IMG/VR virus record: IMGVR_UViG_3300036759_000011
Coordinates: 1-56,120 of that record
Direction: 5' to 3' (one strand)
DNA: 56,120 nucleotides
Origin: a virus
Shown here: positions 5,099 through 40,085 of the stretch, piece after piece
Numbering within the stretch: position 1 is the first letter of the stretch
How the letters are laid out: every line of letters starts with the position of its first letter
The notes under the pieces: model-generated
What the model saw: the letters and a program-made list of their open reading frames with translations, nothing else
What the model was told of the DNA's origin: nothing
The model's database searches: none
Position numbers and translations under genes: made by a program

Positions 5099-5382
5099 CA
5101 ACGTCTAGGGAGAGAGATCGTAACAGGAAGCACTTTCACAAAGGTCACTATGAGATTATCGCGGCTAGGTTTCGTGAGGAGTTTAGCACGTACGTCAACG
5201 AGGACGGTACTCCTGTAGTTAGCTATAATCATGGCGAGGGACTCATTGCAGCAACCGCATTGGTAAGATTGTGTGGATCTTTGGCTAATAGATTCGAGTT
5301 TGACAACGATGAGTTTGAACGGGAGATTTTCTTTAAGCGTTGTAGTCCATACGACGAATTCGATTTGAAGGATTGGATGTAA
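5092..5382 (+). CDS. Hypothetical protein (96 aa)
   Basis: Begins at GTG 5092, which overlaps the preceding TAA stop; no better start is in frame. A basic N-terminus (TSRERDRNRKHFHKGHYE) leads into a helical domain (IIAARFREEFS, ATALVRLCGSLANRFE) with an acidic end (FDLKDWM). Stop overlaps the next ATG. Function unknown. Confidence 0.6.
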   Translation: MVTTSRERDRNRKHFHKGHYEIIAARFREEFSTYVNEDGTPVVSYNHGEGLIAATALVRLCGSLANRFEFDNDEFEREIFFKRCSPYDEFDLKDWM

Positions 5383-7167: not shown

Positions 7168-7352
7168 TGAAATTCACCGAGCGCGTAACTTTTAGGTTGA
7201 TTCAAATGCCATGCTGTGGGCATGCACTTTGTTGGGTGAATCCCAGATTCCCTAACTTCTGTCCGCAATGTGGTAATCACATCTTCACAAAAGTTAAGCA
7301 AGGTGTATTGTTGACCGATACAGAAGCGACCCTAAACTACGAGGGGGATTGA
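7167..7352 (+). CDS. Small zinc-ribbon protein (61 aa)
   Basis: TAATG-coupled start at 7167. Ligands: MPCCGHALCW near residue 15-23 and CPQCGNH near residue 36-42, a rubredoxin-like zinc knuckle set. It is one of a cluster of very small zinc proteins encoded in the early region (2989, 7352, 8851, 15513, 55735), which usually act as nucleic-acid or protein adaptors. Specific role unknown. Confidence 0.65.
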   Translation: MKFTERVTFRLIQMPCCGHALCWVNPRFPNFCPQCGNHIFTKVKQGVLLTDTEATLNYEGD

Positions 7353-7666
7353 TGGGACTCACCAAGGAAGAGATAGATAGACTTCTTGCGAAGAAAGCGT
7401 CACGCACTCGTGGTGGGGGTCGCAAAAAGAACGAGCCTAATCTTGATGATCGTACATATCAGACGTGGTTCAAGATGATGCACAAGCTCATTGATGATGA
7501 TACGGGAGAGATGCTGAACTGTGATAATGAGCAGTGTATCGATCCACGCGATCGTACTAACGGTCAGACCGTTATTAAGATTAAGGGTCAATGGATGTGT
7601 AGATATTGCTTCATTGATGGGTGGCTACTAGAAAACCCAGCACAGCAGGAACTTCCTGCCACATGA
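7352..7666 (+). CDS. Zinc protein with shared N-terminal MGLTKEEIDRLLAKK motif
   Basis: I start at ATG 7352 (GAGGGGG upstream; TTG 7349 is an alternative). The first 15 residues MGLTKEEIDRLLAKK are identical to those of the otherwise different protein at 16096. A basic linker (RTRGGGRKK) follows, then a domain with CDNEQC and CRYC ligands separated by a charged loop. The identical opening suggests a functional tag or docking helix copied between genes. Ends ATGA-coupled to the next gene. Confidence 0.7.
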   Translation: MGLTKEEIDRLLAKKASRTRGGGRKKNEPNLDDRTYQTWFKMMHKLIDDDTGEMLNCDNEQCIDPRDRTNGQTVIKIKGQWMCRYCFIDGWLLENPAQQELPAT

Positions 7667-8133
7667 CTTCAAGTGCTGACAACTTAGTAGAGTGGGCAAC
7701 GGACCTTTACGCTCTAATGTACGTAGAATCGAAAGTCAATGATTATGGCGAACGTGTGTTCGAGGGAAAGGTAACAGATCTGTTCAAGCACTTAGATGTG
7801 GGTATTGGGAATTATACTCCTATCCGCCAAGTCTTGGTAGAATCGGGAGCCATCGTATTCCAGCAACGTGGGAACCGGATGCAACCATCTGTCATCGAGC
7901 TTCGCGGCGCAGAAAAAATTTCGGCCGAACCCTTGACACGGGCGCGGCGAGCCGCTATAGTGAAGCTACAAGACGTTGACCGGCGGCTCGCGGCGGTCGA
8001 AAACTGGAGAGAGACAACGGGAGGTATCAATTTAGGAGAAGCACTAAGATCGATGGAACTACGGTTAACCAGGCTAGAGGAACTAGCCACAAACGGGAGA
8101 AACGAAGTTTCCCCACAAAACGAAAGGAAGTAA
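7663..8133 (+). CDS. Winged-helix-like protein with coiled-coil tail
   Basis: A 156-residue protein starting ATG 7663 (ATGA overlap). The N-terminal region contains a plausible winged helix (VTDLFKHLDVGIGNYTPIRQ, then VLVESGAIVFQQRGNRM), followed by a heptad-rich helix (AAIVKLQDVDRRLAAVEN, SMELRLTRLEELAT) likely to form a coiled coil. Its coding sequence also holds a perfect LexA-type box (7749) and a strong promoter (7933). DNA binding is inferred. Confidence 0.65.
   Translation: MTSSADNLVEWATDLYALMYVESKVNDYGERVFEGKVTDLFKHLDVGIGNYTPIRQVLVESGAIVFQQRGNRMQPSVIELRGAEKISAEPLTRARRAAIVKLQDVDRRLAAVENWRETTGGINLGEALRSMELRLTRLEELATNGRNEVSPQNERK
7749..7762. promoter_or_regulatory. Perfect LexA/SOS-type box inside a gene
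   Basis: CGAACGTGTGTTCG matches CGAAC-N4-GTTCG perfectly. It lies about 170 bases upstream of the promoter at 7933, within the winged-helix gene. Confidence 0.55.
7933..7961 (+). promoter_or_regulatory. Strong promoter embedded in a gene
   Basis: TTGACA (7933-7938), 17 bases, TATAGT (7956-7961). The context CCCTTGACACGGGC is the same as at the promoter 8755. It lies within the coding region of the preceding gene and would drive the gene at 8137. Confidence 0.75.
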
Positions 8134-18081: not shown

Positions 18082-20217
18082 TTGATTGCTAAGAGTGAAT
18101 TACGCAAGCAATTCTTTGAGCTACTGTTTAAGGATTACGAGGGCTTTATCTGTTTCGCCACATCTGAAGCAGCAGCGCCGAAAGTAACTTTCAGGCAGCA
18201 CTTCTTCAAGTGGCCTACAGACCACACAAGAGTAGAAGAGTTTTTGCTGCATCATGAGCAGAGATATAATCTCTACTTCTGTATTAATCTCCTCTCCAAG
18301 ATGGAGAGGCGTAAAGAATTCTGTCTGGAATCAGACATAGTTTGGGCTGATCTAGATGAGAAGAATCCAGAAGAAATCGAGGACATTCCCCCACAAATCG
18401 TCATTCAGTCATCTCCTGGCAGATGGCAAGCCTTCTGGCGTCTAAGTTCGAGAATCCCACCATACGAGGCAGAAGAATATTCTAGGCGCGTTGCTTATAA
18501 ATACAAGGCTGATTCGTCGGGCTGGGATCTAACCCAGCTTTTTCGTGTTCCGTTTACTAGAAATCTCAAGTATACAGACAAGCCACACATTACAGTTGCT
18601 AGAGCTTTTAGCGCCGAAGCGCCAGCTAAACTCTTTGAGCTTCTCCCGACAACCATCCACAAGAATCAGGATGGCTCGGAGATGCCCGATGCTTCCAAAG
18701 ATCCTACATCAATCATTGAGAAGCATAAGCCACTTCTACGTCAGACAGCCTTTGAGGCTCTCTTCACACAGGAGCTAGAACTAGACGCAGATTGGTCAAA
18801 GACTCTATGGAGACTCATCCACGAATGTTTCAAGGTGGGGATGACAGCAGAAGAAGTTTTTACTGTCGTTCGTCATGCTTCCTGCAATAAATACGAGCGT
18901 GATGGTAGGCCAGTTGAGCATCTATGGAGAGAGGTCATCAAAGCCAGCAAGAGTTACGTTGGTGGCGAACCCTTGCCAGAGATGTTGGTTATGCCTCAAC
19001 TTGTTTCTGATCCCCAAACCGAAACATTCGTAGATGAGTACATGGATTGGGCCTGTCGAGCTACGGACGCCCCAAGAATCTTCCATGAGCTATGTGCATT
19101 CATAGCTCTGAGTGCTATAGTATCATGCTCGGTTAGACTGGAAACCAATGCAGGGCCAATCGTTCCAAATCTGTGGGCTTTGATTCTTGGTGAGTCTACG
19201 ATCAGCAGAAAGACCACATCTATGCGTTTGATAGTCGATATTCTTCAAACGTTAGATAAAGAGCTAGTGGTAGCCACAGACGGTACAGCAGAGGGAATCC
19301 TCACTGGTCTGACGAACAGACCCAATCGCACTTCGATCTTCTGGAAAGATGAAGTGTCTGGATTCTTTGAGGCTATGAATCGTAGAGACTACATGTCGGG
19401 TATGCAAGAAACACTTGCAGCCTTGTATGATGTGCCTCCCTGGTTCAAGAGGACTCTACGCAAAGAAACATTTATCATTGAATCTCCCGCATTCATAGTG
19501 CTGGCCGGTGGAGTCGTTGATAGAGTTTATGAGTCAGTCACAGAAGGATACGTCTTGTCCGGATTTTTACCAAGATTTCTGGTAGTAACGGGAGAAGCGG
19601 AAGAACGTAGACCGATGGGGCCACCAACAGAAGAAGGAATGAACAAGAAAGCCAAGATCGTAGCTAAGCTAGCAGATATGTATGAGCATTATGCTTCTGA
19701 TGTGACCATGAAGATTGCTGGACAGAAAGTTCAGATGCCACCGAGGATTAGGGCTCAACTCACTAAAGAAGCTTGGGCTAGAAACACAGAGATAGAAAAC
19801 ACAATGATTGAAGCCGCGAAGGATTCCCTCGTAAGGAACCTCGCTCTACCGACATTTGAAAGAATGCACCGTAGTCTACTCAAAATGGGAGTAATATTAG
19901 CTGCATCCAGGCAGGTACCTATTGACGATCGTATCGAAGTAGAAGATCAGGATATAGTGAATGCGGCTCATTACGTCCAGATTTGGGGTAACTGCTCAAT
20001 TCAGTTGATTATGAACGCCGGAAAGAAACAATCGGAAAAGCTCCTAGATAAACTCCATAGATCTATCGAGAACCATCCTGGAATTTTGCGCGGTCAGCTT
20101 ATGAGACACTTCAAGCTGTCTAAGCGAGAAGCTACGGAATATCTGGATACTCTCGAAGATCGTGGTATGGTAAGGAGAGAAACCCGTGGTACCGGATCGG
20201 CATACTGGGTAACATGA
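18082..20217 (+). CDS. Primase-polymerase/DUF3987-type helicase fusion
   Basis: A 711-residue replication protein starting at TTG 18082 behind GGAGG. The N-terminal third resembles an archaeo-eukaryotic primase: VWADLDEKNP (two Asp near residues 90 and 92), then IVIQSSPGRWQAFWRLS and a DLTQLFRVPFTRN segment. The central and C-terminal part is a DUF3987-like ATPase with GESTISRKTT (about 370-379) as a modified P-loop (Arg before Lys-Thr), then IFWKDEVSGFFEAM, and AFIVLAGGV. A winged helix (GQLMRHFKLSKREATEYLDT) ends it. It probably primes and unwinds at the replication fork. ATGA-coupled to the kinase. Confidence 0.8.
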   Translation: MIAKSELRKQFFELLFKDYEGFICFATSEAAAPKVTFRQHFFKWPTDHTRVEEFLLHHEQRYNLYFCINLLSKMERRKEFCLESDIVWADLDEKNPEEIEDIPPQIVIQSSPGRWQAFWRLSSRIPPYEAEEYSRRVAYKYKADSSGWDLTQLFRVPFTRNLKYTDKPHITVARAFSAEAPAKLFELLPTTIHKNQDGSEMPDASKDPTSIIEKHKPLLRQTAFEALFTQELELDADWSKTLWRLIHECFKVGMTAEEVFTVVRHASCNKYERDGRPVEHLWREVIKASKSYVGGEPLPEMLVMPQLVSDPQTETFVDEYMDWACRATDAPRIFHELCAFIALSAIVSCSVRLETNAGPIVPNLWALILGESTISRKTTSMRLIVDILQTLDKELVVATDGTAEGILTGLTNRPNRTSIFWKDEVSGFFEAMNRRDYMSGMQETLAALYDVPPWFKRTLRKETFIIESPAFIVLAGGVVDRVYESVTEGYVLSGFLPRFLVVTGEAEERRPMGPPTEEGMNKKAKIVAKLADMYEHYASDVTMKIAGQKVQMPPRIRAQLTKEAWARNTEIENTMIEAAKDSLVRNLALPTFERMHRSLLKMGVILAASRQVPIDDRIEVEDQDIVNAAHYVQIWGNCSIQLIMNAGKKQSEKLLDKLHRSIENHPGILRGQLMRHFKLSKREATEYLDTLEDRGMVRRETRGTGSAYWVT

Positions 20218-20834
20218 TTATTGCATTTACAGGTAAAAGAGGTAGCGGCAAGAGCACGGCCGCTGCTTATCTCATAAAAGAGCATGAGTTTGAGTTGCGA
20301 GCATTTGCAGACCCACTAAAGAAATCGTTTGCTGCGCTTTTCGATATTCGCTATCATGAGATTGAAAAATTCAAGAACGATCCAAACACGTTCATAGAGA
20401 TTAGAACAGTGGATACATCTTACGAAAATGAGTATCTATCTGGGCCAGTCATGACTTTCCGTGAGGCACTACAGCGTTATGGTACTGAGGCTCACCGTGA
20501 TATCTTTGGTGAAGATTTTTGGGTAGACTTAGCTTTGCCACTACCTCCTGTGGGATTCTATGTAGGCCGAAAAATCGTCATCCATGATTGTAGATTCCTG
20601 AATGAAGCTTATCGTGTAAAACAATTGGGAGGCTATGTAATTGACATTAAGCGGCCCCCCTCAGACCAACCCCAGCACAGGGGGTGGGAGAATCATGTCA
20701 GCGAGAGTGAAATGGATAATATCCCGAAGGATGTTGTGATAAAGAATGACGGAACTATTAGTGACTTATATATCAGAATCGAAGCAGTTCTCTCAACAGT
20801 TCTTGATTACGTCGGGCATGAGCGCACAAGTTAA
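20214..20834 (+). CDS. Deoxynucleoside monophosphate kinase
   Basis: A 206-residue P-loop kinase. GKRGSGKST (residues 7-15) is the nucleotide-binding loop, FADPLKKSFAALFDI follows as in T4 gp1-type dNMP kinases, and TFREALQRYGTEAHRDIFGE with later IVIHDCRFLNEA are the conserved lid and substrate motifs. It phosphorylates deoxynucleoside monophosphates for phage DNA synthesis. It overlaps the primase stop (ATGA) and is followed by an overlapping small gene. Confidence 0.88.
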   Translation: MIIAFTGKRGSGKSTAAAYLIKEHEFELRAFADPLKKSFAALFDIRYHEIEKFKNDPNTFIEIRTVDTSYENEYLSGPVMTFREALQRYGTEAHRDIFGEDFWVDLALPLPPVGFYVGRKIVIHDCRFLNEAYRVKQLGGYVIDIKRPPSDQPQHRGWENHVSESEMDNIPKDVVIKNDGTISDLYIRIEAVLSTVLDYVGHERTS

Positions 20835-21033
20835 TTATTACGAGAAGAAGTATGAGGAATGGTTCGAGAAGCACACAAACACTTCTCGATGGCATCCGCT
20901 CAGGAAACACAAAGCTAAGATCGAGTACGAGTATTATCTCAGAATGATGATGGATACAATCCAGATCGAGAAAGAAGAGTTTGCGGAGTATCTGAGGGAG
21001 AGAGAAGAGCAAGGCCATGCAGCCAAAAGCTGA
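20818..21033 (+). CDS. Small helical charged protein (71 aa)
   Basis: ATG 20818 lies 16 bases before the kinase stop. MSAQVNYYEKKYEEWFEKHT... is almost wholly helical and highly charged (KHKAKIEYEYYLRMMMDTIQ, EKEEFAEYLREREEQG), probably a coiled coil. It overlaps the polymerase start by 17 bases. No recognised family; position suggests a replication accessory. Confidence 0.6.
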   Translation: MSAQVNYYEKKYEEWFEKHTNTSRWHPLRKHKAKIEYEYYLRMMMDTIQIEKEEFAEYLREREEQGHAAKS

Positions 21034-23470
21034 ACATGCTATTTGTGATAAGTGCCCGCTGAAGAACAAATCTTTTGCGGCATCGACCGGGCCGACCGAT
21101 GCGAAGATCGCAGTCGTATCTAGATCGCCAGGTCATTACGAAGCTATCCGAGGTAAGAGTTTTTCGGGGCCAAGCGGGAGAATCCTGGATCATCTGCTCA
21201 AGATTCATGGAGTAGACAGGAAAGATGTATTTGCCACAAATGCCGTCTTGTGCCAAGCCGATGGTACAGAGCAGGGTTTCGGATTAGCTGTCGCTTGTTG
21301 CGAACCGCGTCTAAAGGCGGAAATCGCTAATGCTGATACTATCATTGCGGCTGGCAGAGAGGCAGCCTACAGCGTTCTAGGAGTTTCTAATGTAGGCCAG
21401 AATCGTGGCTATCCCCATTTCGTGCAAACGAATGGGAAGGCGCAACGTGTCATCGTTACTAACAATCCTGCTGTTGTGCTTAGGGACGACGCTACTTATC
21501 CTGAGCTTGTTCGTGATTTTCGATTGGCTATAGCACCACTACCAACTCCAAAGCTACCAAAAGTACGATTCACTGAGAACGTCGTAGAGGCGAGGGAATG
21601 GGTAGAACAAATACTTCCCACGCTGGTGCCTGGTACTCTACTGGCATCAGACCTTGAAACCAGGAGTGAGGGTGATGGAGCTTACAATAGAATTGTTTGT
21701 GCAGGTTTCTCCACAAGATCCGAACGTGCCATCGTTTTCGGAGAGTCGGTCTGTTACAATAATGATTTCCTCGGAAACTATCTCCGACGACTTTATGAAA
21801 TCCCTGGAATCTCTTACCTCTGGCATAACGGAAAATATGACGTCAAGGTATTACGAAGAGCCGGAATAAATGCGCGCGTCGATCATGATTCTATGCTTGT
21901 CAGTTGGTGTCTCGATGAGCGTCCTGGCGACCCTGATAGTGGTGCTGGCGGCCATTCGCTAGAATGGTTGCTAAAGGATGAACTAGGATGGCCGAAATAC
22001 GAGCCACCATCTGTGCGGCAGTTTAAGAAAGATGGTATCCTCGCGGATGCTAAAGCGCATGAGGAACTATACAAATACAACGGCCATGATACCGCAGGAA
22101 CTATCTCACTGTTCGAGGTTCTGAAGGAACGGGCCATCAATGACAACGTTTGGGAGAAACCATATCTCTCGCTGCTGATCCGCTTGAGTGAGGCGTTGGC
22201 TCGTACTGAGATGCAGGGTACTATCTACGATGCTGAGGAATCCTGCAACATTCTAGAGCGGGTCGTGTGGCCTAAACTGCGAGCACAGCGTGCCTATATG
22301 CGGGAGCTATGTGGTGTCAAGCTTCTGAATCCAAACTCGCCCAAGCAACTTGAGAAGCTGATGTATGATGATTGGGGGCTTCATCACAACCTCATCAGAT
22401 CAAACATTGAGCGAGTAGGCAAGCGATCCACCGACAAATTCGTTCGGGACGAGATTCTACAAGTAGGGTTTAATTGCAATGACTCGGTTCATCGAGAGAC
22501 TTTCAAACTATTTGTTGAAACCCTCGATCAATTTAAGGAACTTGACAAGCAGAGAGGAACCTATCTTGAGGGACTCGTCCTCAAGCGAAGTAAGGACGGA
22601 AGAATTTACACTGACTTTAAGATTCACGGAACTGAGTCCGGGAGGGTTAGTGGTAATAAGCCAAACCTACAAAACATCACAAGACCAAAAGACGGATTAC
22701 CAAATATCCGTAGTGCCTTCGTTCCAGACCCCGGATGTATTTTTGTCTCTGCTGACCTCTCTCAAGCTGAGCTTCGCGCAATTGCCGCACTCAGTGGTGA
22801 CGAACAACTTCAATCAGTTTACACCGATACAAGTAGGTCACTCCACAAAGAAGTTGCCACCCAATTCTATGGAAGTGATTACACCTACGAACAGTACGTT
22901 GTTGCAAAGAACATCAACTTTGGAGTGGCTTATTGGCAGAGTGCATACAGCTTCGCGCAGATGTATCATATCAGTCAGGAAGAAGCTCAGAATTTTATAG
23001 ACTACTGGTGGAACAGATTTCCGGCGGTGTGGGACTGGACTAAGCACATGGAAGCTTTGGTGCTTAAGAAAGGGGAGATTCAATCTCCGTTCGGTCACAA
23101 GCGCAGGTTCTATGTAATCCCACAGGATGAGTCCGCACGTATCCATGTGGTCAAGGAAGGCATTAACTTCCTACCGCAGAACATCGCCGCAAATATCACC
23201 AATTGGGCTTTGTGTGAATTCACCGAATGGTTAACTGCTACAAATAAATGGGACGTTATCAGCACGCGCATAACAGTCCATGATAGCATCCTTGTCAATT
23301 GTAAGCAGGCTTACGTACCAGAAGCTGTGAGTAAACTAAAAGAATGTCTGGAAACCGCACCGCAAAAAGCTCTTGGCTGGGAGTTTCCTTTTGTGGCGGA
23401 ATTCAGCGTCGGCTCTAATTGGGGCCAAATGGAAGATTACCATGAAAACGCTTACAGCAATTCACGGTGA
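21017..23470 (+). CDS. DNA polymerase I fused to a UDG-like N-terminal domain
   Basis: An 817-residue family A polymerase. Residues 1-170 resemble family 4 uracil-DNA glycosylases: CDKCPL, GKSFSGPSGRILDHLL, then FATNAVLCQ and ACCEPR give four cysteines for a possible Fe-S cluster. The usual GEAPG is replaced by SRSPG and the terminal HPS-type motif by NNPAVV, so glycosylase activity is doubtful. The 3'-5' exonuclease has SDLET (near 212) and YNGHDTAG. The polymerase has DLSQAELR (near 580), AKNINFGVAYW (near 631) and HDS (near 755, instead of HDE). No 5'-3' exonuclease domain. This is the replicative polymerase. Confidence 0.9.
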   Translation: MQPKAEHAICDKCPLKNKSFAASTGPTDAKIAVVSRSPGHYEAIRGKSFSGPSGRILDHLLKIHGVDRKDVFATNAVLCQADGTEQGFGLAVACCEPRLKAEIANADTIIAAGREAAYSVLGVSNVGQNRGYPHFVQTNGKAQRVIVTNNPAVVLRDDATYPELVRDFRLAIAPLPTPKLPKVRFTENVVEAREWVEQILPTLVPGTLLASDLETRSEGDGAYNRIVCAGFSTRSERAIVFGESVCYNNDFLGNYLRRLYEIPGISYLWHNGKYDVKVLRRAGINARVDHDSMLVSWCLDERPGDPDSGAGGHSLEWLLKDELGWPKYEPPSVRQFKKDGILADAKAHEELYKYNGHDTAGTISLFEVLKERAINDNVWEKPYLSLLIRLSEALARTEMQGTIYDAEESCNILERVVWPKLRAQRAYMRELCGVKLLNPNSPKQLEKLMYDDWGLHHNLIRSNIERVGKRSTDKFVRDEILQVGFNCNDSVHRETFKLFVETLDQFKELDKQRGTYLEGLVLKRSKDGRIYTDFKIHGTESGRVSGNKPNLQNITRPKDGLPNIRSAFVPDPGCIFVSADLSQAELRAIAALSGDEQLQSVYTDTSRSLHKEVATQFYGSDYTYEQYVVAKNINFGVAYWQSAYSFAQMYHISQEEAQNFIDYWWNRFPAVWDWTKHMEALVLKKGEIQSPFGHKRRFYVIPQDESARIHVVKEGINFLPQNIAANITNWALCEFTEWLTATNKWDVISTRITVHDSILVNCKQAYVPEAVSKLKECLETAPQKALGWEFPFVAEFSVGSNWGQMEDYHENAYSNSR

Positions 23471-23852
23471 AACTTGCATCGTGGACGATGATGTTTATGA
23501 GTGGGCTTCGCAAATAAGATGGTGTGTCAGTGGTGGATATTTTAAGTGCAGCTCCGGACGTCATAAACACAAGTATTTACACAGAATGATTATCGGAGAA
23601 ATTCCGGAAGGATTTGAGACAGATCACATCAACAGGAACAAGTTCGATAATCGCCGCGAGAATTTAAGAATCGTTACGCACGCCATAAATATGCGTAATA
23701 ATGCAGCCAAAAATGTTTTTTATGAAGTGAGAAAATGTAGATGGGTGGCTAGACTCAGGCGTGATTATAAATTTATCCGGCTGGGTACGTATAAAACCGA
23801 GGAAGAGGCTCTTGAAGTCGTCAGGAAATTCAAGGAAGGTGAACTTGAATGA
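23442..23852 (+). CDS. HNH homing endonuclease with AP2-like tail
   Basis: A 136-residue free-standing HNH enzyme overlapping the polymerase end by 29 bases. The core is YLHRMIIGEIPEGFETDHIN...NKFDNRRENLRIVTHAINMRN (catalytic His pair and Asn of the HNH_3 type). The C-terminal WVARLRRDYKFIRLGTYKTE, then EEALEVV, is an AP2-like DNA-binding repeat, typical of mobile phage endonucleases. It probably invaded the end of the polymerase gene. The gene is more AT-rich than its neighbours, supporting transfer. Confidence 0.88.
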   Translation: MKTLTAIHGETCIVDDDVYEWASQIRWCVSGGYFKCSSGRHKHKYLHRMIIGEIPEGFETDHINRNKFDNRRENLRIVTHAINMRNNAAKNVFYEVRKCRWVARLRRDYKFIRLGTYKTEEEALEVVRKFKEGELE

Positions 23853-24010
23853 GCATACCGGAAGCTTCTCCAGAACTGGACACTCTACTACAAGCGATAG
23901 TTCAAACGGTAACGGGTCAGCCAACTCAAGATAAATCATACGACGAGATGACAGCTATGCTCGTTCAGATGTGGCAAGACACTGAAGAGTACAGGCCACC
24001 TGCTGAATGA
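23849..24010 (+). CDS. Small hypothetical protein (53 aa)
   Basis: ATG 23849 overlaps the HNH stop (ATGA) and its own stop overlaps the RuvC-like start (ATGA). MSIPEASPELDTLLQAIVQTV... is acidic with one clear helix (YDEMTAMLVQMWQDTEEY). The double coupling argues that it is translated. Function unknown. Confidence 0.65.
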   Translation: MSIPEASPELDTLLQAIVQTVTGQPTQDKSYDEMTAMLVQMWQDTEEYRPPAE

Positions 24011-24492
24011 GAGTAATAGCAATTGATCCCGGCCTGATGACAGGCTATTGCTATGCTCGTGTTACGCCTGAGAATAAGGTAGAATTCTACCCATTCCAAA
24101 TGATGGATGAGGTTGACGATCTTTGGAATCGTCTACACGAATTCCACCCAAGATATATCATCTGCGAAGATTTTCAGTTTCGTGGTGGTCATCATCGTGC
24201 AGCTACGGGCATCAACTACTTTCCCATTCAACTGATAGGTGTAGCTCGTTTGTATGAACTGACTGCGCCACATCAAGTGGCCCTGTATTTGCAAAACCCC
24301 GCACAGGGTAAGAGCTATTACACGAACGCCGTGCTGAAGAAACGGGGGTATATACCACATGGCATGTTCACTAAAGTGGAACACGGAATCGATGCCACCA
24401 GACACCTTCTACAGTGGTTCACATTTGGCGCTGGATATCAATTCATTACCAACGAGCAGGATTTTGCTGTCAGGATGGACGAATGGTTATGA
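24007..24492 (+). CDS. RuvC-like Holliday junction resolvase
   Basis: A 161-residue RNase H-fold protein. MRVIAIDPGLMTGYCYA carries the first acidic residue of the DPG motif, IICEDFQFRGG the second, and VEHGIDATRHLLQW the third with a conserved His/Asp pair. These are the RuvC/poxvirus A22-like resolvase signatures found in actinophages. It should cut branched DNA produced by recombination before packaging. ATGA-coupled on both sides. Confidence 0.85.
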   Translation: MRVIAIDPGLMTGYCYARVTPENKVEFYPFQMMDEVDDLWNRLHEFHPRYIICEDFQFRGGHHRAATGINYFPIQLIGVARLYELTAPHQVALYLQNPAQGKSYYTNAVLKKRGYIPHGMFTKVEHGIDATRHLLQWFTFGAGYQFITNEQDFAVRMDEWL

Positions 24493-24683
24493 GTGAGTAC
24501 ACTGAAGAACAAGTCCACGAGGAAGGCGTGGTAGCCATTATCTTAGATAATATTCCAGACATATACATCTTGAACAATACTAGAATAGAGGAGGCCGAGC
24601 ATCCTACATCTGTTCTTGTTCTCGTTGATACTGATGACCGCATGTTCAAGGTTACAGTGACGACTGAAGAGGTAAAAGAATGA
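24489..24683 (+). CDS. Small acidic hypothetical protein (64 aa)
   Basis: ATG 24489 overlaps the resolvase stop. MSEYTEEQVHEEGVVAIILD... is strongly acidic with alternating strands (VAIILDNIPDIYIL, TSVLVLVDTDDRMFKVTV). Possibly a DNA-mimic-like beta protein, which is speculation. ATGA-coupled to the frameshift gene. Confidence 0.65.
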   Translation: MSEYTEEQVHEEGVVAIILDNIPDIYILNNTRIEEAEHPTSVLVLVDTDDRMFKVTVTTEEVKE

Positions 24684-24919
24684 GCGATATCGGAAGTCAA
24701 GATGGGATCACGGCTGCAATGAATCGGCTACGTGATCTTGACCCTAATGGTACTCTTCTGAAGAAGGGAGCGGATGGTAAGTGGCCTAGCATTAATACGC
24801 TAACTCAGCCACTAGAACAGTGGAAAGCATATGATAAGCTGGAGCGTAGTCAAACCATTCTCGTTGACGATCACGATTCGGGAGCTAGTAAAAACCCTTT
24901 CGCCGGGGCATCCTCGTAG
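24680..24919 (+). CDS. Early protein, zero-frame product of a -1 frameshift pair
   Basis: A 79-residue protein starting ATG 24680 (ATGA overlap): MSDIGSQDGITAAMNRLRDL ... PLEQWKAYDKLERSQ, acidic, partly helical, ending SKNPFAGASS. Codons 72-74 (AAC CCT TTC) contain two overlapping slippery heptamers followed by a hairpin. The downstream frame is open without any usable start, so a fraction of ribosomes should shift -1 and make a 307-residue fusion. Function of either form unknown. Confidence 0.7.
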   Translation: MSDIGSQDGITAAMNRLRDLDPNGTLLKKGADGKWPSINTLTQPLEQWKAYDKLERSQTILVDDHDSGASKNPFAGASS

Positions 24920-24926
24920 GGGATGC
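24892..24926 (+). promoter_or_regulatory. -1 programmed ribosomal frameshift site
   Basis: Zero-frame codons read AGT AAA AAC CCT TTC GCC. A-AAC-CCT (24892-24898) and C-CCT-TTC (24895-24901) both satisfy X-XXY-YYZ. Six bases later GCATCCTC (24908-24915) pairs with GGGGATGC (24919-24926; one G-T) around a GTA loop. The zero-frame TAG (24917-24919) lies at the loop and 3' arm. The -1 frame is open from AAA-CCC-TTT to 25602, and lacks ATG, GTG or TTG until ATG 25084. Confidence 0.8.
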
Positions 24927-25602
24927 TACTTCCAATTGTACTTTCGACGGTCACGATTTCTCATATCCTGGTGGGATTGGGGTACTCCTAGACAAGTTTA
25001 TCAACCACGGATATTACGCCGTTGCGGTTAAGTACGGGGAAAACCGTGGGGATGAATGGCTTAACGAGGCAGCCAAGCGTAATATGGCTATTGCTCTGTG
25101 GGACGATAAGCCAACTCAAGAGAAAGCTCAGGGTGCTGCCGGATATCTGACTAGAACGCTTGAGCAGTATCCCACAGATCACATGACCATGATGTATCTT
25201 CCTCAGATGGAAACTGCTGAGGAGTGTGCAGGTTGTATGGCGGGAGCTACTTGGGTTGCTATCAATACGGCTATATGGGTAGCCGTATTAACTAATTTGT
25301 TCAACGAGCGTACTAATTCAGAGATTGCGCCAACTTTGGCTGCACTTGGAATAGCCGCTCTAGCTGAAGTTTACCCAGCTGAGAACACAGCATGGTATGA
25401 CAAGCCAATAGACTACGAGAACGCAATGATTGCCGATTGCAAGCGTCTCGGCTATGAATTCGTGGTTCTCCTGTTAGGAGTCTACTGGGAATACGCACTC
25501 AGTCGTTTTCAGCCTCAAGAGCTGCCAGGCTCCTGGAATTATCTGGGAGAAACAATGACAGATAGGCAAGGTGATTGGAACGTCTACTTTTCTTCGACGT
25601 AA
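24901..25602 (+). CDS. Frameshift-encoded C-terminal domain (233 aa)
   Basis: In the -1 frame, codons from CGC 24901 run unbroken to TAA 25600-25602, giving 233 residues fused after residue 74 of the preceding protein. The stretch before the first ATG (25084) is protein-like: CTFDGHDFSYPGGIGVLLDK, FINHGYYAVAVKYGENRGDE. This shows that a start at 25084 would truncate a real domain. The rest includes KAQGAAGYLTRTLEQYP, ECAGCMAGATWVAINTAIWV (hydrophobic, possibly buried or membrane-associated) and IGAALAEVYPAE-like helices. No family is recognised. Confidence 0.65.
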   Translation, partial: RRGILVGDATSNCTFDGHDFSYPGGIGVLLDKFINHGYYAVAVKYGENRGDEWLNEAAKRNMAIALWDDKPTQEKAQGAAGYLTRTLEQYPTDHMTMMYLPQMETAEECAGCMAGATWVAINTAIWVAVLTNLFNERTNSEIAPTLAALGIAALAEVYPAENTAWYDKPIDYENAMIADCKRLGYEFVVLLLGVYWEYALSRFQPQELPGSWNYLGETMTDRQGDWNVYFSST

Positions 25603-25606
25603 AAAT

Positions 25607-25834
25607 ATGAAGCCTATGACCGATATTTTGGAAGATCCGGCGCTTCCTTTTATGATCGGTCGTTTGGTGGGAGCTTCGGAAATGGCATCTCACCTGATGA
25701 GAGTAGCTACTACCACTGACGAGGCACTAGCCAAGCAAGGGGAACTACTTCAGAAGGTTGTAGACTGGTTCTTTGATCCAGCCCACACACCCACGTCCGA
25801 ACAAGATACAAAGATCATACCTCCAAGATTGTAA
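25607..25834 (+). CDS. Small hypothetical protein (75 aa)
   Basis: ATG 25607 follows the previous stop by 4 bases; no strong ribosome binding site. MKPMTDILEDPALPFMIGRL, then helices VGASEMASHLMRVATTTDEA and LAKQGELLQKVVDWFFDP. TAATG-coupled to the next gene. Function unknown. Confidence 0.6.
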   Translation: MKPMTDILEDPALPFMIGRLVGASEMASHLMRVATTTDEALAKQGELLQKVVDWFFDPAHTPTSEQDTKIIPPRL

Positions 25835-26223: not shown

Positions 26224-26544
26224 TTGCATAGACTGCTTGTACTAACCGCGCTCCTACTCGCCCTAGTAGGGGCGACGGGAACAGAAGCAGCACTAGCACA
26301 AAGGCAGGACTACGTTACAAATGGTCTATTATGCATACACAGGTACGAAGGTAGCTGGACAGATCCAGGAGCACCATATTACGGCGGGCTCCAGTTTTCT
26401 CTCTCGACTTGGCGTTCGGTGGGAGGCAGGGGTTACCCACACCAAGCGTCTATAGCAGAACAGATGTATAGGGGTAGACTTCTTTATTTGAGGAGCGGAT
26501 GGGGCCAGTGGCCGGTAACTTCTCGGATGTGCGGATTGCGTTAG
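26224..26544 (+). CDS. Secreted Rpf-like transglycosylase
   Basis: A 106-residue protein starting at TTG 26224 with AAAAGGGAG upstream. A signal peptide (MHRLLVLTALLLALVGATGT) likely cleaved after ALA precedes a small lysozyme-fold domain: LLCIHRYEGSWTDPGAPYYG, GLQFSLSTWRSVGG, AEQMYRGRLLYLRSGWGQWP. The E in HRYEGSW and the GGLQF loop match the transglycosylase-like domain of actinobacterial resuscitation-promoting factors. It probably cuts peptidoglycan during exit or cell-wall remodelling, and it points to an actinobacterial host. Confidence 0.85.
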   Translation: MHRLLVLTALLLALVGATGTEAALAQRQDYVTNGLLCIHRYEGSWTDPGAPYYGGLQFSLSTWRSVGGRGYPHQASIAEQMYRGRLLYLRSGWGQWPVTSRMCGLR

Positions 26545-26699
26545 GATATTTGGCAGGTATTATAGATGGTGAAGGCTCTATATCCTGCACATCTCGCAAC
26601 ATGCAATATTGGCTAAAGAAATACGATCTAACTCTAAATAGCCAAGACATTAAGAAATCCAAAGGAAGGAAGATTCTCAAGGAGTTGGGCTTGATTTGA
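26499..26699 (+). pseudogene. LAGLIDADG homing endonuclease remnant
   Basis: A 66-residue frame from ATG 26499 overlapping the transglycosylase end by 46 bases. LGYLAGIIDGEGSIS (near residues 15-29) is a textbook LAGLIDADG motif. Functional enzymes carry at least about 130 more residues with DNA-binding strands and a second motif or dimer interface. Here only WLKKYDLTLNSQDIKKSKGR and KILKELGLI follow before the stop. It is a degraded mobile element left at the end of the early block. Confidence 0.65.
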
Positions 26700-27326: not shown

Positions 27327-28067
27327 TTACTGTACGCAAGTGAATAAAGTTTCTTTCCCGCCCGCGGCATTTACTGTGACAGTTCTTAATGTAAACCCTG
27401 GGGGACAATTCAATACTCCTACTGCTGGTTCACCTTTTGGCCCTGGTGGGCCTGGTGGGCCTGGTGGGCCTGGTGGGCCTGGTGGGCCTGGTGGGCCTGG
27501 TATTCCTACACCTTGTCCAGATTTTCCTTGTGGGCCTTGAGGCCCTTGAGGCCCAGGTGGCCCTTGTGGCCCAGGTGTACCACTACCACTAGATCCGTTA
27601 CTACCGTTACTACCCTGTGGCCCCGGTGATCCTGGTGGCCCTTGTTCACCTTGCTTGCCAGGTAATCCCTGTGGGCCTTGAATTCCGCGTTCTCCCGTTT
27701 TACCGCGTGGGCCTTGTGTTCCACGCTCACCACGTTTGCCTTGCTTACCCTGTTCGCCGCGTAATCCACGTAGCCCTCGTTCACCACGCAATCCCTGTGC
27801 GCCTTGAGCGCCACGTTTACCAGTTAAGCCTTTAATACCCTGTAGCCCTTGTATGCCCTGCTTACCTTTTTGGCCCTGTTGTCCAGTATTACCTTCTTGT
27901 CCAGGTGGGCCAGGCGGGCCTGGTATTGGATTGTGTACGGTAATAGTGGTTGTAATCTTTTGACCGTGATTGCTAGAAGCAAAGATTCCTGAAGCCGCTA
28001 TAAATCCCGCCGCGAGGAAGAATAAAACAACAGCTACGAAAAACGTTCTATTCGAGCTAAGTTTCAT
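27327..28067 (-). CDS. Membrane-anchored collagen-like protein
   Basis: A 246-residue protein. Residues about 8-28 form an N-terminal transmembrane or signal segment ([20 protein letters not shown]). Residues 50-215 are Gly-X-Y triplets, including [16 protein letters not shown] and a terminal run of GPP triplets. A short C-terminal domain with two cysteines follows ([19 protein letters not shown]). Collagen-like repeats in phages normally occur in fibres without a membrane helix. The hydrophobic start suggests a host-envelope protein expressed late or a virion protein with a signal anchor. Confidence 0.8.
27445..27498. repeat. Six tandem copies of GGTGGGCCT
   Basis: A 9-base unit repeated six times without change encodes consecutive Gly-Pro-Pro triplets on the minus strand. 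Such perfect arrays change length by slippage, so the collagen stalk is likely polymorphic. Confidence 0.9.
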
Positions 28068-37298: not shown

Positions 37299-39286
37299 TA
37301 CTTCCTCGCCAGATAATCCTGATTAGCTTGGGCTACGGCAGTAGCCAAGACTCTGCGATCTAGCATAACTTGCACAACAATTGGCCTACCCTCGCCCATC
37401 ATGCCACTCAAAGAAAGATGCTGACTAATTTGGTTATTAGGAATGACACTAGAACCACCGGGTAGGTACAATAGCTCAGGCCCAATTTCGCCAACTACAT
37501 AAGGGCCAGAAGATGTGACAGGCCCGCCACTTTGTCTTCTCCCAGGATGCCCAGGCGGACCAAGCACGGCTCTAGTTGCTCTATGAACGGCGTGGGCAGC
37601 CACACCCGCAACCTTACTTATCCAATGCCAGCCTTTCTTTACGACACCTACTACCGCCTCAATTGCTTTCTTCAGATCTTTCCATCTCTTCACCAAAAGT
37701 CCAATGATATAGATACCTGGAATGAGAAGATTAAGTAGCAATCCCATCCAATACCAGTTCTTCCAGATCCATTTTGCAGCGTCGATCAGAGTATCTCTAA
37801 AGCCCTTCCAGAAGATGAACAGAATAACGAAGACGGCAATAAGCGCGATTGCTATAGCGATCCATCCAAGCATGGCAAAGTTTACAAATAGCCAAGCAAT
37901 AGCATTAGCGATCAGAACACCCGTTTGCCAAATAAGCCTGACGGTTACTCGGATAATCGCCCAGATCACCCGAATCATAGTGCGGATAAGCCACCACAAA
38001 GCTCTAGTTAATACCTTAACTACTGTCGTGGTATACTCTATAACGTCATTAAGCATCTTGAAGGAGAAATACAACAGACCCATAGTTACTTTGGCTACCA
38101 CTATTGTGCCCGTATATACAAGCCACAAACCGATAACCACACCCAAGAAATATCCCAAAGCTTTCATTATCCACTTATTGGCATTGAATGCTTTGGTTAG
38201 GCCGCCCATATGACTAGTCACAAGACTAACTACTTTAATCAGGCTGATAAAGGTGATGGCAATGCCCTTAATCAGAGCATCGAAGAAGTAGAACGCATCG
38301 ATGATTGCATGTGTTCCGGGCGTGAGTCTTTTATCTAGAGCATTAGCGAAGTCCAGGAGAGTTGCTGGCTTACCATCTCTGACAATCTTATTGATTTCTC
38401 TATCAACACCAGCCAACAGCTTTTGAACGTGACTAAGAATGGGCAGAGTACCTTGACCAGCGCCCTGGGACAACAGATCCTTGAACGTAGTCCATGCACC
38501 AATCAGCGTCTTGGTTTGGATTCTCAGAGCAGCCCCAGAATAACCAGCAGTCGTCTGGACATACTTGTTCAGAGCACCGATTACCTGCTGTGCTGTTATT
38601 CCGGAATTGGCAATATTCTTAATCTGATCGTCGTTGAGCTTCAGTACCTTGTGCAAAGCAGCAAAGATCGGTAGGCCGTCACGAGCAAGGTTGGTAATAA
38701 TCTGACCTGTTGGTCTACCAACGAATGCCATGTGCTGCAACTGTACGGAAACTCGGTTTAGAGCCGCCGGTGTAGTCTTACCAGCATAAGACAAAGAATC
38801 GACCAGAGCTTGCATAGTCTGGTTAGTGAAATCTATTGAGAATCCGAGGGTATGAAAACCGGCAAACATCTGCCGGAAGGCTACAGTAACATCCTTAAAC
38901 TGGAATGGCGAGAATGCAGCTAGATGGAACAGCTTACCCATCTCTTCATTAAGCTGTCCCGTCGCACCCAACACCGGCTGTAGGGCTACTCTAGCTTCTT
39001 GGGATGCCATGTTGTAACTAACACCCAGCTTAACTACAGCCGCACCTAGGCCAATGGCCGCAGCAGTTCCGTAGAACATATACCTACGGGCTGTGAATAC
39101 AGCCTGTTGGAACATCAGGGAATTTTTCGTTGCTACCCTCGAAGCTGCCGCATTTCTGGTGATAGCCATGTTAGCACGGTTTACGGAACCCGTAAACGTG
39201 TTCATCGCAGCAGAAGCCGCAGGCCCGCCTTTAACCGCCAATTCAACTATCAGACGTTGTGCAGCGCTGAGAGCACTAAAACCCAT
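37298..39286 (-). CDS. Tape measure protein
   Basis: A 662-residue protein. N-terminal tape-measure domain (ATGQLNEEMGKLFHLAAFSP, FQFKDVTVAFRQMFAGFHTL) with several later hydrophobic helices (FYFFDALIKGIAITFISLIK, GYFLGVVIGLWLVYTGTIVV, FAMLGWIAIAIALIAVFVIL) and a C-terminal helical part. It sets tail length and may insert in the host membrane during DNA delivery. Short for a tape measure, predicting a tail of roughly 100 nm by the usual 0.15 nm per residue rule. Confidence 0.88.
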   Translation of the reverse strand: MGFSALSAAQRLIVELAVKGGPAASAAMNTFTGSVNRANMAITRNAAASRVATKNSLMFQQAVFTARRYMFYGTAAAIGLGAAVVKLGVSYNMASQEARVALQPVLGATGQLNEEMGKLFHLAAFSPFQFKDVTVAFRQMFAGFHTLGFSIDFTNQTMQALVDSLSYAGKTTPAALNRVSVQLQHMAFVGRPTGQIITNLARDGLPIFAALHKVLKLNDDQIKNIANSGITAQQVIGALNKYVQTTAGYSGAALRIQTKTLIGAWTTFKDLLSQGAGQGTLPILSHVQKLLAGVDREINKIVRDGKPATLLDFANALDKRLTPGTHAIIDAFYFFDALIKGIAITFISLIKVVSLVTSHMGGLTKAFNANKWIMKALGYFLGVVIGLWLVYTGTIVVAKVTMGLLYFSFKMLNDVIEYTTTVVKVLTRALWWLIRTMIRVIWAIIRVTVRLIWQTGVLIANAIAWLFVNFAMLGWIAIAIALIAVFVILFIFWKGFRDTLIDAAKWIWKNWYWMGLLLNLLIPGIYIIGLLVKRWKDLKKAIEAVVGVVKKGWHWISKVAGVAAHAVHRATRAVLGPPGHPGRRQSGGPVTSSGPYVVGEIGPELLYLPGGSSVIPNNQISQHLSLSGMMGEGRPIVVQVMLDRRVLATAVAQANQDYLARK

Positions 39287-39510
39287 TACTGTTTAAACAA
39301 CTTTCCCACTTGATTGGCAATCTCAACAGCCAAGTTCTTATCTAACATCTGTCTATAGTGCATCATACGATCTGCTACAGCCAGCATCAAATTTCTCTCA
39401 AAGCCATCAGTAGTCTTGAGGAAGGCGAGGGGATCCATGCCAACAACACCTATTTGTGCTGCGGCATTGATGGCATTGATTCCCTCCTCCGTCATTCCCC
39501 CATCTGCCAA
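39286..39510 (-). CDS. Tail assembly chaperone, downstream frame
   Basis: A 74-residue frame (MADGGMTEEGINAINAAAQI ... GKLFKQ) directly before the tape measure gene. It is in the -1 frame relative to the larger chaperone that ends at 39492, with 19 bases of overlap centred on a run of five G. It could be reached by -1 frameshifting, as in most contractile and siphoviral tail chaperone pairs, or start independently at ATG 39495 (ATGA). Confidence 0.7.
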   Translation of the reverse strand: MADGGMTEEGINAINAAAQIGVVGMDPLAFLKTTDGFERNLMLAVADRMMHYRQMLDKNLAVEIANQVGKLFKQ

Positions 39511-40085
39511 ATCTCTCTTTCCAGATCAGCGTTTGTGTCCAACAACCATCGATTCAATCGTTCTGCATGGTTGATGATAGCTAGCTCGTTATTACCAAAG
39601 AAACGTCTAACCACCAATCTAGCCGTTAGAGGTTGCCCAGGCTCACTCTTCAGTCCCATAGCCTTAGCTAGACGTTCATCAAACATGACAGGAGATCCCA
39701 TCATCTCAGGATCTAATTCTACAGGCTCATCAATTCCCTCAGGCTGGCAATACAAGCCAGCACAAAGGCGAATCATCGTGTCGATACTGATATACAGATT
39801 CCTGTTATAGCCATCCTTAAATTCTCGTTGGACCTTACGAGTAATATCATCTAGTTCTTTGCCTTTATCGGGCAGATGATATTTGATCTGGATTCCAGAT
39901 CGCTCATAACCTCTAACAGGGATGTACACTTCCTTAACAGAGGCAAGTTCTTCTTGATCTTGCCTAAGCAGGTCAATGACCGAAGGCATTTGACCGGGAT
40001 GTGTACCGTTATCTTCGGCCGCGCCCTCTTCTTCAAACCCCTGCACAGCAGGAGTGGGCTGACCTTCTTGCTCAATTTCGTTCAT
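39492..40085 (-). CDS. Tail assembly chaperone, upstream frame
   Basis: A 197-residue protein between tail tube and tape measure. Acidic N-terminus (EIEQEGQPTPAVQGFEEEG), beta-rich middle (SVKEVYIPVRGYERSGIQIK), and helical C-terminus. Position and acidity match the G/E-type chaperone. Its last codons ATG GGG GAA TGA contain a G5 run where a -1 shift would enter the frame of the 39286 product. Confidence 0.75.
   Translation of the reverse strand: MNEIEQEGQPTPAVQGFEEEGAAEDNGTHPGQMPSVIDLLRQDQEELASVKEVYIPVRGYERSGIQIKYHLPDKGKELDDITRKVQREFKDGYNRNLYISIDTMIRLCAGLYCQPEGIDEPVELDPEMMGSPVMFDERLAKAMGLKSEPGQPLTARLVVRRFFGNNELAIINHAERLNRWLLDTNADLEREIWQMGE

Follow-up and report, generated by a model that had tools for sequence, protein, structure and literature searches.

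A probable −1 ribosomal frameshift at a conserved C_CCT_TTY heptamer in an uncharacterised phage protein family

Reading frames at the junction

The window, by which we mean the whole 56,120-base stretch that was analysed, is an IMG/VR virus record that belongs, by gene content, to a sheath-bearing phage. Its replication genes are on the + strand and extend to about 23.5 kb; from about 27 kb onward, the − strand carries the genes for tail, head and lysis. In the interval between them, a short open reading frame ends where a much longer one is already open in the −1 frame, and the longer frame lacks a standard start codon near its beginning. The question that this locus raises is how the second frame comes to be translated.

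The zero-frame ORF (24680–24919, + strand) is preceded by a Shine-Dalgarno-like GAAGAGG at 24666–24672, as read from the sequence, and encodes 79 residues before the TAG at 24917–24919. Its N domain, with the pattern IGxQDG...DKLERxxxILxxDHD, has relatives in other viral contigs and is followed by an NPFAGASS tail; the end of the ORF reads AAA AAC CCT TTC GCC GGG GCA TCC TCG TAG. The −1 frame opens at 24892, just past a TAG TAA, and runs to 25602, and the part of it from 24901 to 25602 (+ strand, stop at 25600–25602) encodes 233 residues that are predicted to form a TIM-barrel-like C domain. No ATG, GTG or TTG occurs in its first 64 codons, the first standard start being the ATG at 25084, codon 65. 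Re-reading of the sequence bore out all of the coordinates given for 24680–25602 by the first-pass annotation, together with its statement that early standard starts are missing from the −1 frame.

That annotation also described two overlapping slippery heptamers. Both are present, A_AAC_CCT at 24892–24898 and C_CCT_TTC at 24895–24901 (both + strand), but the view that both function did not hold up: the former occurs in the window only, whereas C_CCT_TTY alone is conserved, being found at the junctions of the window and of the contigs L002, L003 and L025. The C_CCT_TTC in the overlap lies in frame as an X_XXY_YYZ heptamer and so permits tandem −1 re-pairing; a slip at this site gives a fusion of 74 + 233 = 307 residues. 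A count over 31,293 codons, from all ORFs in the window that are 60 aa or longer, gave a single in-frame C_CCT_TTY, the one at the junction. When the ORFs of at least 60 aa of nine related stretches are added to those of the window, the motif occurs in frame seven times, four of them at junctions, and only these four copies lie 45 bases or fewer from the end of an ORF.

One other ORF end in the window (7633, in the interval 7349–8133, + strand) carries an X_XXY_YYZ heptamer, AAACCCA, and about 155 further codons are open in its −1 frame; in this case the ORF that follows has possible starts of its own. Because a second heptamer with a long −1 continuation is found there, the bare pattern is unconvincing by itself, and it is conservation that convinces.

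We consider it highly probable, from the comparisons described below, that programmed −1 ribosomal frameshifting at C_CCT_TTC yields a short and a long form of the protein. Most ribosomes would read 24680–24919 and release the 79-residue protein. In a fraction of ribosomes, the Pro-tRNA on CCU and the Phe-tRNA on UUC would slip one base back onto CCC and UUU, and these ribosomes would bypass the nearby stop and append the 233-residue TIM-barrel-like domain to give the 307-residue fusion. An SD-like stretch upstream and structure downstream may aid the slip.

Comparison with related contigs

A search of viral contigs with the −1 frame protein identified two relatives, L002 and L003, the C parts of which are 63% and 56% identical to that of the window, respectively. 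In each, a short zero-frame ORF (72 aa in L002 and 78 aa in L003) ends just past AACCCTTTY and the C domain lies in the −1 frame. In these two contigs the sequence AACCCTTT at the junction is identical, while the 30 bases 5′ of the motif show only 1–4 matches out of 10 in nearly every ten-base bin. The C domains of L002 and L003 are 72% identical to each other, and similarity of the L003 N part to the L002 N part or to other N domains is not detectable.

The −1 frame is under purifying selection. Among the window, L002 and L003, dN is 0.23–0.39 over the whole of this frame and 0.09–0.21 over its first 31 codons, with synonymous sites at or near saturation. Those 31 codons are without a standard start in all three contigs and are conserved upstream of any such codon, so the conserved protein there cannot stem from a standard start.

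An alternative to frameshifting is that the C domain is made separately, from a non-standard start coupled to termination of the short ORF. Near-cognate codons do exist, as codon 7 or codon 8 of the −1 frame, in the window (ATC at 24910), L002 and L003 (ATC or CTG in the relatives), and they lie near the beginning of the first β-strand of the barrel. AUC start codons are very poor, however, and no SD-like sequence is found immediately 5′ of these codons. The separate start also leaves unexplained the retention of CCCTTTY in four contigs and the six in-frame fusions described below. The fourth contig, L025, has a 79-aa zero-frame ORF, C_CCT_TTC at 5195–5201 and its C domain in the −1 frame; the codons equivalent to the near-cognate ones are CTC TAC there, and the only standard starts nearby are a GTG at 5117, which is far upstream, and an ATG at 5237, which is past the first strand. 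We regard separate initiation as unlikely for these reasons.

Transcriptional rather than ribosomal slippage at the A5 run is a still poorer explanation and carries very little weight. The window does have AAAAA at 24890–24894, but there is no A run at the corresponding position in L002 (GACAACCC), L003 (CAGAACCC) or L025 (GGCGCCCCC), and the contigs share no sufficiently long homopolymer.

A search with the N domain returned 16 contigs, including L002 itself and L039. In six of the loci (L026–L029, L031 and L032), the N domain is continuous with a homologous C domain in one ORF of 294–300 aa. The two groups of C domains are homologous, as judged by hhalign (99.6% probability, E 6e-25), and the L025 C domain is 55–63% identical to those of the in-frame group and 27% identical to that of the window. 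Because the same N and C domains are continuous in six relatives, it is very probable that the fusion is really made. The pair of 79- and 307-residue products put forward in the first-pass annotation is thus strongly supported, with the split and the heptamer kept in three other contigs and in-frame fusions present in six.

The existence of relatives with a continuous ORF, and the origin of the window as an IMG/VR virus record, might suggest instead that a single-base change, whether from assembly or sequencing error or in a decayed gene, has broken one ORF into two. L039 is 100% identical to positions 19680–24833 of the window and ends before the junction, which it therefore does not confirm. 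Against such an error or decay, the split recurs at the same motif in three contigs from other metagenome samples, purifying selection acts on the C domain, and the in-frame relatives differ from the split form by an added linker and not by one base. Furthermore, metagenome 3300037153 holds both architectures, the split one in L002 and the in-frame one in L027, which argues against a sample-wide sequencing artefact. We give this explanation almost no credence.

Sequence comparison thus shows that the split and C_CCT_TTY are conserved, that the −1 frame evolves under purifying selection and that relatives carry the fusion in frame. The efficiency of the shift, with the long form as the minority product, and the contribution of stimulators are what we infer from it. 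On the tree, the frameshift state takes two changes, with the forks around L025 poorly resolved; either frameshifting is ancestral and was later replaced by in-frame fusion, or it arose twice with the same heptamer.

The N domain seems, from its distribution, to be a reusable module. In three contigs it is fused in frame to unrelated-looking C-terminal parts (L038, 4995–5852; L036, 1434–2012; L037, 5001–5579). In L030 (5001–5192) and L034 (5001–5210), stand-alone N-domain ORFs overlap the 5′ end of an endolysin-like gene with a start codon of its own, which hints at a tie between the N domain itself and lysis or tail genes. Given that other N-domain ORFs stand alone or have other C-terminal parts, a stand-alone N protein is plausible as a functional main product.

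Candidate stimulators and known frameshift systems

In E. coli, heptamers with UUY as the A-site codon and all-pyrimidine motifs shift better than others (PMC4066793). C_CCT_TTY consists of pyrimidines throughout and places UUY in the A site, and by the E. coli rule it would be among the more shift-prone kinds; to apply these slip rules in the host of this phage is an extrapolation.

An internal SD-like GGGAG at 24880–24884 (+ strand), 10 nt 5′ of the heptamer, is a candidate stimulator. The energy of its duplex with the anti-SD sequence is −6.6 kcal/mol, a level attained by 5.7% of random positions. SD-like stretches precede the heptamer in all four contigs (GGAGGA in L002, AGGCAGGT in L003 and a weaker one in L025), with random-position levels of 5.7%, 2.0%, 5.3% and 4.4%. 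Each of these levels is marginal alone; combined by Fisher's method, in our own arithmetic, they give about p = 0.001. Because the spacing of the stretches varies, we call the combined signal suggestive.

The 8-bp hairpin GCATCCTC-GTA-GGGGATGC around the zero-frame TAG (24908–24926, + strand), which begins six bases past the heptamer, is present where the first-pass annotation placed it, but its proposed role in the shift found less support. L002 keeps the hairpin, with a U-G pair in place of one C-G, and in L003 it is broken and a different, longer stem can form; L002 is the only relative that shares it. In addition, stems near the shift site in the window, L002 and L003 are no more stable than those at random positions. 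We treat the hairpin as an optional stimulator.

Frameshift-appended C-terminal domains are established in phage proteins, and the same kind of domain may be joined in frame or by frameshift depending on the phage (PMC5009743, PMC6669499). Appended Ig-like or carbohydrate-binding domains are known for T3 gene 10, Lactobacillus phage A2, Listeria phages PSA, A118 and A500, and the tail proteins of SPP1 and the 936 group. Outside the structural genes, cro of A2 is an example in E. coli, and a list of other gene classes known to frameshift is available (PMC10885494). A claim of uniqueness for frameshifting outside the tail chaperones thus cannot be sustained, in view of the capsid and tail Ig-like extensions and A2 cro (PMC5009743, PMC10885494). 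Like the Ig-like and carbohydrate-binding extensions, the present gene would give a shorter main product and a form with an extra C-terminal domain, and its domain pair is also joined in frame in relatives, here at six loci. It differs from them in that the N part is a small, uncharacterised protein rather than a recognised major capsid or tail protein, and in that the appended domain is modelled as TIM-barrel-like and not as Ig or carbohydrate-binding.

In the lambda G/GT tail chaperone, too, a short phage ORF undergoes a −1 shift close to its 3′ end and yields two products. Unlike G/GT, the gene in the window is neither beside the tape measure gene nor between the major tail protein and tape measure genes, and the window has a separate chaperone-like ORF pair (39286–40085, − strand) immediately before the tape measure gene. 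This is likely the tail-chaperone pair; its overlap at GGGGGAATGA is compatible with an ATGA overlap or with a −1 shift at G_GGG_GAA. The dnaX signal resembles the present one in having an SD-like stretch about 10 nt upstream, an X_XXY_YYZ heptamer and a possible stem-loop downstream. Here, in contrast to dnaX, the heptamer is a different one, the stem is not conserved, and the shift gives a longer rather than a shorter product.

The novelty lies in the protein family and in its barrel-like domain, and the mechanism is a known one. An uncharacterised family joins the non-chaperone phage genes with evolutionary evidence for −1 frameshifting, and it offers a natural comparison, as four contigs link the two domains through a frameshift and six link the same two directly. 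With this comparison one can ask whether selection acts on the proportion of short to long form.

The C domain, its gene neighbourhood and possible role

AlphaFold2, given three sequences, produced an alternating β/α model of the C domain (pLDDT 68, pTM 0.72); a second model with L002 as the first sequence was poorer and was left out. Foldseek matches to the model were mostly TIM barrels, none of them below E 0.001, and the domain is, with moderate confidence in the model, TIM-barrel-like. In a ten-sequence alignment, three invariant acidic residues (D71, E107 and E159 of P0001) are at or near predicted strand ends. No match for the C domain was found in Pfam, PHROG or NCBIfam, and nothing significant was found among solved structures or, in Rfam, at all. 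No relative of either form turned up when 50,697 annotated phage records were searched at the DNA and protein levels, and two C-domain profiles detected none in scans of prokaryote genomes.

Three candidate identities were rejected. GH25 lysozyme was considered in response to several weak phage "lysozyme" fold matches, and a seven-sequence profile gave no support (hhalign probability <1%, with a score no better than column shuffles). A Septimatrevirus tail protein that L002 matched weakly (27%, E 0.3) was dropped because the match lies partly inside the Phage-tail_3 region of that protein and because hhalign gave 35% probability over one region. An insertion-sequence OrfA/OrfB arrangement, suggested by the sizes, fits neither the β/α order, which is not RNase-H-like, nor the transposase families, none of which matched.

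From its position in this one window, the gene had been described as a replication-linked early gene outside the tail module. Tail genes precede it in L025, L026, L029 and L032 (called from tape measure and tail-protein profile matches in L025 and L029, and from resemblance and order in L026 and L032), and an endolysin lies 3′ of it in L025, L029, L031 and L032. In L002 the gene reads toward the terminase and endolysin, and in L003 it is found before the terminase and portal. Since the gene lies between tail genes and endolysin in most relatives with context, the earlier description is probably wrong, and a tail- or lysis-associated role would be the better guess from gene order.

By analogy with the frameshift-appended Ig-like domains, the 307-residue product is best read as the minority long form of a small tail- or lysis-associated phage protein. 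It is conceivable, though we hold this tentatively, that the gene encodes a small protein of the tail/lysis region of which a minority of copies carries a putative barrel acting on the cell envelope or binding glycans, an activity that we infer. More doubtful is a broader possibility, that an undescribed two-domain tail/lysis family has a new TIM-barrel enzyme or binding domain dosed by a C_CCU_UUY shift, with the slip site kept even though one domain is replaced or diverges. L002 and L003, with related C domains and N parts without detectable similarity, are an example of such retention.

Several further features were noted in the window. An HNH endonuclease ORF (23373–23852, + strand), possibly a homing gene, adjoins the 3′ end of the DNA polymerase gene. 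Directly next to the frameshift gene is a small ORF (25607–25831, + strand; MKPMxDILEDPxLPFMIGRLVG) without a family match, about 80% identical in L002, where its counterpart, from about 5684, is likewise directly 3′ of the frameshift gene. At 26224–26699 (+ strand), a short transglycosylase-like ORF is overlapped by an ORF carrying GYLAGIIDGEGS, apparently a fragment of a LAGLIDADG endonuclease. A collagen-like Gly-X-Y repeat protein with an N-terminal hydrophobic segment (27327–28067, − strand) adjoins the endolysin.
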